A DNA stretch of 64,000 nt from Methanohalophilus mahii DSM 5219 (lineage in GTDB: Archaea; Halobacteriota; Methanosarcinia; Methanosarcinales; Methanosarcinaceae). Location: positions 1-64,000 of the forward strand of contig NC_014002.1 of NCBI RefSeq assembly GCF_000025865.1. The letters run 5' to 3'. A model generated the notes under the pieces. That model saw only the letters and a program-made list of their open reading frames with translations, was not told where the DNA came from and ran no database searches. Below are positions 25,560-27,402 of the stretch, piece by piece (the stretch's first letter is position 1; the number at the start of each line of letters is the position of its first letter). The position numbers and the translations under genes were made by a program.

Positions 25560-26024
25560 TTGCAGAGGAGAGGCCTGCTTTTTTTGTTATTGATCTTAAT
25601 ACTGTTTAGTTCAGGGTGTTCTGATATAGGGGATACGGTAAAAGATGTTAATGAAACCGTTACTCAGAGCAAGGAAGATGTTGAGTACCTGAAATGGATG
25701 AAGGCTTCGATCGATATCATCCATTCCGATTATGTCGATATCAAACAGGCTCTTGAAGACCGTGACGTGGCCACACTCGAAAAGGCTGCCGGGAATCTTA
25801 CCAGTCACTGCAGTAAAGCCAAAGGGACAATGCAATCCTTCAATCCATCTCCCAGCCTGCAACCTGTGACTGACAGGTACAGTCAAATTCTCAATCAATC
25901 CTGCAGTCTGGGTACCTTTCTGGAAGAAAATGCAGCCACCCTTAATTTTACAAACGAAACAACCCTGCAGAAAGTTGAGAAAAATATGGGTCTTGTAAAT
26001 AATTCGTTAATACTCAATAATTGA
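25560..26024 (+). CDS. Small predicted lipoprotein, unknown function
   Basis: A 154-residue protein with a signal peptide (LLFLLLILILFSSGC) whose Cys20 is a lipobox cysteine, so it is predicted to be lipid-anchored outside the membrane. The mature part is helical, with no recognised domain; three cysteines beyond the lipobox may not be structural. The start is TTG 25560, with AGGAGG eight bases before it. It lies 57 bases after dnaG. Confidence 0.72.
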   Translation: MQRRGLLFLLLILILFSSGCSDIGDTVKDVNETVTQSKEDVEYLKWMKASIDIIHSDYVDIKQALEDRDVATLEKAAGNLTSHCSKAKGTMQSFNPSPSLQPVTDRYSQILNQSCSLGTFLEENAATLNFTNETTLQKVEKNMGLVNNSLILNN

Positions 26025-26095
26025 AAGTCAACCCTCTGATTGTATATGCAGCAGTTGCCATCTTTGGACATTCAAAAACATAAGGGAAAATAAGA

Positions 26096-26112
26096 AACTA
26101 TATATATTATAG
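26096..26112 (+). promoter_or_regulatory. Promoter of the small RNA
   Basis: AACTATATATATTATAG is a strong TATA box. The centre-to-start distance of 24-27 bases puts initiation at about 26126-26130, exactly where the small-RNA stem begins. Confidence 0.65.
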
Positions 26113-26127
26113 ATTTAATGTGAGGCT

Positions 26128-26250
26128 CGTTGAGGAATACTGCGAAAATACCCCCAAACTCCCCCAATTGAGTATTGCAGTACTGATCCTCCAAAACTCA
26201 TCCCCCACCATCGAGTATTCCTCAACAACCCCTCTTTTTGGCCTTTTTTT
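26128..26250 (+). ncRNA. Stand-alone small RNA with C-rich loops
   Basis: GTTGAGGAATACT (26129-26141) and its exact complement AGTATTCCTCAAC (26214-26226) form a 13-pair closing stem. The enclosed region contains three CCCCC runs (26151-26155, 26161-26165, 26202-26206), complementary in principle to G-rich ribosome binding sites. A TATA box sits 25 bases upstream of the stem, and TTTTTGGCCTTTTTTTT follows it. The left arm can instead pair with an internal GCAGTA...TCCTC segment (about 26178-26192), giving mutually exclusive folds. No protein frame is present. Resemblance to Methanosarcina sRNAs that mask ribosome binding sites is by architecture only. Confidence 0.72.
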
Positions 26251-26334
26251 TAAATCTCCGTCTCGCGATTCGTAATAATTAATTTTAAAAGATTAAAGAA
26301 AAAAGAGATACTGGATTATTGTCTTCCTGGTTTT

Positions 26335-27402
26335 TCAGGAAAGGATTACTTCCAGCTTTTCCTGCTCTGCTGCAAGTTTGACTTCCTGGGAAATACGTTT
26401 GCCTGTGGATAGTCCTTCCTCTATGAAATCGGAGTATGGGGAACCATTGGTGTATATATTGGTCCCTGCTACTATCCTGGCTGAAATCTCGAAGACCTTG
26501 ATCTCAAGCTGGTCTGTAAAAACCGTTTCCAGACAGAAGGACCCGATCATGCCACCAAACAGTTTGAGGGATTCCTCTACAACCTGTTCTCCGAGGGAAA
26601 AAATCTTGGGCATCAGGGATTCCCTGGCTACCAGGGGGATATTGCCAGTAACAACATAGGTAGGCTGCACGTTTGATTCTTCGAGTTCTTTAGGAGAACC
26701 CAGACGGAAGATCTCATCGGCATTGGATTCGACACGCCGGTCCATACTCAGCATTTCAAGAGTTCCGTTACTGAGCCTGTATCCTTCTTGCTTGAGAGGG
26801 GAATAGAAATAGTGTAGATAATAGCGTGTGCCTACAATGAACTCCTGCACGGTGTACTTCTCACTTTCATCTATATTTTCCAGGAATTCCTCATAGTTCT
26901 TGGCAATGAAGAAACCACGTCCTCCTTTGGCACCGTGATATTTGACCATTACAGGACCGTGAATGTCCTCGGGTTCAACAAGCCGGGGCATGTGGATTCC
27001 TGCTCCTTCCAGCCACTCTCTCTCTTTTGTACGGTCTGATTCCCAATTAAGTACGGCACGGTTGCCAAAGGTAGGTACTTCAAGATCAAGGAATTTATCG
27101 GCACCCATATATTCCACAAAGGAACCATGTGGTATTATTATGGCGTTTTTCTGTCTCAAAAGGGGGGCGATATTGGGGATATCCTTGTAACTGTCAACGG
27201 AAATGAACTCATCGGGTTTGGCCAGAGGATAGGCATTATAAAAACGGGGAGGTTCACCTATGCAAATTCCGATTGTTTTTAAACCCTCTTTCCTAGCTCC
27301 ATGGAATATCTGGAGGCTAGAATGAGAACATACCGTGGCAATCGCCAGGTCATCGGCATTGTAGTCTTTCAGGATGTCGGAAATTTGCTTTTTCGTGATC
27401 AT
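26335..27402 (-). CDS. purP: 5-formaminoimidazole-4-carboxamide ribonucleotide synthetase (PurP)
   Basis: ATP-grasp enzyme that uses formate and ATP to formylate AICAR in archaeal purine synthesis. The 355-residue protein has an N-terminal Rossmann-like part (ATVCSHSSLQIFHGARKEG), the ATP-binding KYHGAKGGRGFF loop near residues 155-166, and the C-terminal acidic FEISARIVAGTN motif. AAGG lies before ATG 27402. A TATA-like element (about 27444-27456) and CCGTAA repeats lie upstream. Confidence 0.95.
   Translation of the reverse strand: MITKKQISDILKDYNADDLAIATVCSHSSLQIFHGARKEGLKTIGICIGEPPRFYNAYPLAKPDEFISVDSYKDIPNIAPLLRQKNAIIIPHGSFVEYMGADKFLDLEVPTFGNRAVLNWESDRTKEREWLEGAGIHMPRLVEPEDIHGPVMVKYHGAKGGRGFFIAKNYEEFLENIDESEKYTVQEFIVGTRYYLHYFYSPLKQEGYRLSNGTLEMLSMDRRVESNADEIFRLGSPKELEESNVQPTYVVTGNIPLVARESLMPKIFSLGEQVVEESLKLFGGMIGSFCLETVFTDQLEIKVFEISARIVAGTNIYTNGSPYSDFIEEGLSTGKRISQEVKLAAEQEKLEVILS

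Follow-up and report, generated by a model that had tools for sequence, protein, structure and literature searches.

A candidate C-rich small RNA beside purP in Methanohalophilus that may mask ribosome-binding sites

The window that we analysed, 64,000 nt in length, is the start of the 2,012,424-base chromosome of Methanohalophilus mahii. In it, a gap of exactly 310 nt lies between a small lipoprotein-like ORF (ending at 26024) and a convergent purP gene, and this gap holds a well-supported gene for a putative small RNA (sRNA). The features of the locus are as follows.

25560..26024, plus strand: upstream flanking ORF, small and lipoprotein-like, without Pfam match
26099..26106, plus strand: TATA box TATATATA, preceded by A-rich BRE-like bases and located 30-32 nt before the stem in 8/8 genomes
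26129..26251, plus strand: sRNA gene, a 98-nt core (26129-26226) with a T-rich 3' tail; single copy in 8/8 genomes of the genus
26129..26141, plus strand: closing stem, 5' arm GTTGAGGAATACT, of which the first 12 nt never vary
26151..26155, plus strand: C run 1, UACCCCC, 4-6 C depending on species
26161..26165, plus strand: C run 2, no species having fewer than 4 C
26179..26205, plus strand: near-invariant internal segment AGUACUGAUCCUCCAAAACUCAUCCCC, carrying the anti-Shine-Dalgarno motif CCUCC (26186-26192 is AUCCUCC); seen in this genus only
26202..26206, plus strand: C run 3, C5
26214..26226, plus strand: closing stem, 3' arm AGTATTCCTCAAC, of which the last 12 nt never vary
26235..26251, plus strand: T-rich putative terminator TTTTTGGCCTTTTTTTT, a T-rich stretch 3' of the stem in 8/8 genomes
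26335..27402, minus strand: convergent flanking gene for a PurP-type formate ligase (PF06849 and PF06973), adjoining the sRNA in 8/8 genomes

The perfect 13-pair stem starts 30 nt downstream of the TATA box in M. mahii and encloses a 72-nt loop that contains three C5 runs and one CCUCC. The T tracts that follow occupy 26235-26239 and 26244-26251. A first-pass annotation of this DNA had already described a stand-alone RNA gene with a TATA box, a 13-pair stem, three C5 runs and a T tract in the gap. The sequence matches this description, and both the shuffling of the core (fold z = -6.3, with 0 of 200 shuffles equally stable) and the conservation in 8/8 genomes reported below support it. The same annotation had the stem begin at the expected first transcribed base. 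Its position does fit what is expected of an archaeal promoter, with the small correction that the first base is 26129 rather than 26128. The predicted transcript would be about 107-123 nt long, depending on where its ends are placed, and the gene probably extends over about 100-123 bases overall. Box C/D, H/ACA and bulge-helix-bulge RNAs were considered by eye and set aside, as their defining boxes were not seen.

A few observations on the neighbourhood can be mentioned here. In clade A (defined below) the promoter region (26060-26112) shows strong conservation ahead of the TATA box, and the segment CTATATATATTATAG across the box is an imperfect palindrome that could be a regulator site. The lipoprotein-like protein evolves fast, with 40-82% identity within the genus, while the products of dnaG and purP, which flank its gene, are 77-98% identical. 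In G007 the dnaG and lipoprotein neighbours were not found inside the stretch examined.

The eight genomes compared fall into two clades: A, six close relatives that include M. mahii, and B, which consists of G003 and G007. Between the clades, the 12-nt stem arms are 100% identical (a figure of 96% for the 3' arm is due to an alignment gap, the arm itself being identical in all genomes), the 28-nt internal motif is 95% identical and C run 1 88%. Identity drops to 22-44% in the linkers ahead of the internal motif; between the TATA box and the start it is 44%, and in the region 3' of the stem 35%. The stem arms, the C runs and AGUACUGAUCCUCC(A)AAACUCAUCCCC have been kept in both clades despite altered linkers and flanks. 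This is an RNA-like conservation mosaic of the kind expected for a plus-strand non-coding RNA gene. The stem pairing and the C runs, whose persistence in relatives had been proposed as a check, are both kept within the genus, the former invariant in 8/8 genomes and the latter with lengths that differ by one base among species, shifting the reading frame. Covarying stems had also been anticipated. None were seen; since the closing stem is invariant in all genomes, covariation speaks neither for nor against it. The stem is extended differently in the two clades, by CGA/UCG in A and by GAU/AUC in B with bulges on opposite sides, which may be taken as a mild sign of selection on pairing. Across the core the fold z-scores of the species folded range from -4.1 to -7.0. 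The properties by which intergenic archaeal sRNAs are recognised (own promoter, intergenic site, non-coding character as judged by frame-shifting indels, and termination signal) are thus found together in the eight genomes.

The element is single-copy in 8/8 Methanohalophilus genomes and always stands beside purP. It occurs on contigs of Methanohalophilus euhalobius, M. profundi and two further Methanohalophilus. Searches with an exact pattern found it neither in 178 other genomes of the order nor among the other genera in a collection of 84,980 species, and viral contigs gave no match. A covariance model returned only chance-level matches in 104 other genomes of the family; the weak matches in other genera (E 0.06-0.4) sit in unrelated sequence and were rejected. 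At the purP locus of 23 genomes from other genera no such element was seen, even where the neighbouring gene is similar. Conservation across Methanosarcinaceae, as the first-pass annotation had expected, is therefore not supported by covariance model, pattern or synteny. Rfam gave 0 matches across the window; at the locus the top sub-threshold score was 15.4 bits against a cutoff of 41.2, so that the sRNA does not belong to a known Rfam family by this measure.

What might such an RNA pair with? We counted exact complements of the sRNA in fixed regions of 1,999 script-called genes, ignoring mRNA structure. The -25..0 region contains 22 ten-mers where 5.7 are expected and 65 nine-mers where 23.4 are expected, an excess ratio matched by 0 of 1000 dinucleotide shuffles, and 9- to 11-mer complements show no excess at -60..-35 or +30..+55 of the same genes. 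The strongest complementary patches are UACCCCC, AUCCUCCA and the 3' arm UAUUCCUCAA; the complement of C run 1, GGGGGTAT, occurs 7 times before starts (1.04 expected). When CCTCC, TTCCTC and C5 were held fixed and the rest shuffled, the excess dropped to p of about 0.02-0.10, a range that depends on word length and start calling. Since it is weak once the anti-Shine-Dalgarno motifs are fixed, the excess may reflect those motifs alone. Each clade's sRNA is slightly better matched to its own genome than is that of the other clade (181/65/22 versus 166/55/16 in one of the two genomes compared, 42/15/5 versus 30/12/4 in the other). A screen for conserved targets in 245 ortholog pairs (440 kb of G003) gave no excess over a mirrored control. 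The sRNA thus appears suited to ribosome-binding sites mainly via its anti-Shine-Dalgarno motifs, with a weak specific component. The earlier suggestion that the C stretches pair with G-rich ribosome-binding sites fits the position of the excess, which is weak beyond the anti-Shine-Dalgarno motifs, and no conserved target was found. The particular target named, before 31260, is not supported: GGGGGA is present there, but no more than about 6 nt of it match the C runs.

We consider it probable, if well short of certain, that the locus encodes a regulatory sRNA peculiar to the genus, which stands alone, acts in trans and masks ribosome-binding sites. Its own TATA promoter would start transcription at about 26129 and the T tract would end the RNA. 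The long closing stem might tie together and protect both ends of the RNA and display the large C-rich loop. If the loop is accessible in the cell, its CCUCC and C4-C6 patches could pair with the G-rich ribosome-binding sites of several mRNAs, and such pairing would be expected to block initiation of translation, making the sRNA a presumed repressor. A point against this reading is that in clade A CCUCC is partly paired within a weak inner hairpin.

Other explanations of the locus have to be weighed against this one. A 51-aa ORF that starts with GTG is open across the element (26120-26275), and the ends of the element form a perfect inverted repeat, so one may think of a small protein gene or of a MITE-like element. 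We give these hardly any credence. The one-base indels in the C runs, which shift the frame between species, argue against coding, and a mobile element is difficult to reconcile with one copy per genome at an orthologous site in 8/8 genomes and no further copies. It is also very improbable that the functional RNA is the minus-strand one, a G-rich hairpin within the 3' UTR of purP. The minus-strand fold is somewhat more stable (-25 to -34 kcal/mol) and purP points that way, but the TATA box, the start of conservation and the T tract suit the plus strand in 8/8 genomes, and among the eight genomes compared the minus strand is without a consistent TATA box. Moreover, the clade B helix AUUAGUAC/GUACUGAU contains a U-G pair, and on the minus strand these two positions would form a C-A mismatch.

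The remaining explanations accept a plus-strand RNA and differ in how it acts. In a 3'-truncated RNA that stops shortly past the internal CCUCC (26129-26194; -14.4 kcal/mol, z = -3.8), GAGGA and UACUGCGA pair with UUGCAGUA...UCCUC. Truncation has the same effect in both clades, the 5' arm GAGGA pairing with the internal UCCUC (z of -3.8, -2.5 and -2.2). The helix that extends this pairing is clade-specific, namely UACUGCGA/UUGCAGUA for A and UUAGUAC/GUACUGA for B. The second fold, foreseen by the first-pass annotation as an alternative pairing of the 5' arm, is therefore real as a folding intermediate or as the structure of a truncated form. One could go further and suppose that GAGGA, a mimic of the Shine-Dalgarno sequence, masks the internal UCCUC until the completed 3' arm frees it. 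The competing fold makes the switch once suggested conceivable, yet we hold it to be quite improbable: the fold with the closing stem (-23 to -25 kcal/mol) is far more stable and dominates in the full-length RNA, the inner helix of clade B coexists with the closing stem, the GAGGA/UCCUC pairing arises automatically because two UCCUC copies are present, and no trigger is indicated. A less likely explanation that nevertheless deserves attention is that the conserved non-coding RNA has its main partner elsewhere than in ribosome-binding sites: either a protein, bound through the invariant stem sequence and the C patches, or, by antisense pairing, read-through RNA of purP. The stem arms are invariant in sequence as well as in pairing, suggesting sequence-specific recognition, and no mRNA target conserved between the clades was found. 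Gene and purP face each other in all genomes; in G003 and G007 about 24 nt separate the end of the core from the stop codon of purP, and the convergent transcripts probably overlap there. Against such a partner stand the location of the complement excess specifically in the ribosome-binding region and the C runs with CCUCC, which are typical motifs for pairing with mRNA.

If the masking of ribosome-binding sites is accepted, the sRNA can be compared with known systems. To our knowledge, few archaeal sRNAs have known partners; the literature that we searched yielded no sRNA study of Methanohalophilus, a genus of halophilic methanogens, and no sRNA with a known partner in it. The C-rich anti-Shine-Dalgarno design is best known from Firmicutes, and a C/U-rich binding loop occurs in RepG of Helicobacter pylori. 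RepG targets a G-repeat of variable length in the leader of tlpB mRNA (PMC8295292); the Methanohalophilus RNA would likewise be an sRNA for a G-rich tract in mRNA leaders, with the difference that no such single target was found. IsrR, the iron-sparing sRNA of Staphylococcus aureus, shares with it a set of C patches that differ in length, stems whose primary sequence is conserved with little covariation, pairing with Shine-Dalgarno regions (predicted in our case) and confinement to one species group (PMC9410917). IsrR differs in being bacterial and Fur-regulated, with several stem-loops and a canonical terminator (PMC9410917), whereas the Methanohalophilus sRNA has one long end-closing stem and an archaeal promoter; the three-stem layout of IsrR (H1-H3) is not seen, one closing stem being conserved, and sequence homology was not detected.

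Closer in phylogeny are two sRNAs of Methanosarcina mazei. sRNA162 is 191 nt long and has three stem-loops as well as a linker of 39 nt (PMC3510493), and sRNA154 has two loops and additionally stabilises nif mRNAs (PMC5867862). All are intergenic methanogen sRNAs of narrow phylogenetic range in which a loop or single-stranded region masks (here, is proposed to mask) a ribosome-binding site (PMC3510493, PMC5867862). Homology to them, for which the first-pass annotation had suggested a comparison, was not borne out in that covariance model and pattern found no match to the sRNA in the other genera of the family, Methanosarcina included. We judge that the proposed action would resemble that of sRNA154 and sRNA162 and the design that of IsrR, and that the sRNA is homologous to neither. 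As no homology to IsrR, sRNA162 or sRNA154 was found, it would be a new, genus-restricted trans-acting sRNA. If confirmed, it would mean that C-rich anti-Shine-Dalgarno sRNAs arose independently in Archaea. The gene is compact, single-copy and conserved in the genus, with a clear division between stem and C patches.

As to which mRNAs might be masked, the best single match is that of clpB (chromosome positions 410859-413468, minus strand), with 13 contiguous pairs from the ribosome-binding site to the start codon. This match is present in some clade A species only: G001 and G002 carry an altered form and G003 and G007 lack it. With the match broken in 4/8 genomes and its quality equalled in about 10% of shuffles, clpB was rejected as a conserved target. 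Matches were also found for three universal stress proteins, both nitroreductases, a ferritin, a CMD-family protein and a TPP enzyme fused to rubredoxin. For one of the universal stress proteins, orthologs in the other clade A genomes were not found to have the exact GGGGTATT site. A stress/redox theme among the targets is a lead only; it was discarded as a functional finding, 10% of anchored shuffles equalling its family enrichment. A ranking of targets by RNAduplex was set aside, since long gapped duplexes dominate it. The most far-reaching speculation would make the RNA a self-masking global regulator, with the Shine-Dalgarno mimic of the 5' arm concealing the anti-Shine-Dalgarno core as long as the 3' arm is unfinished, and the finished RNA restraining stress/redox mRNAs (those of the three universal stress proteins, both nitroreductases, ferritin, ClpB and the CMD-family protein) as an archaeal counterpart of the iron-sparing C-rich sRNAs. 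We regard this as a long shot. Apart from these candidates, at least four near-identical ORFs (MSVAGRSHLPIYSCKYSKRKYTQHQLL...) at chromosome positions 477064, 886177, 1407047 and 1956915, probably encoding an insertion-sequence transposase, share an upstream segment that resembles a pairing site of the sRNA.
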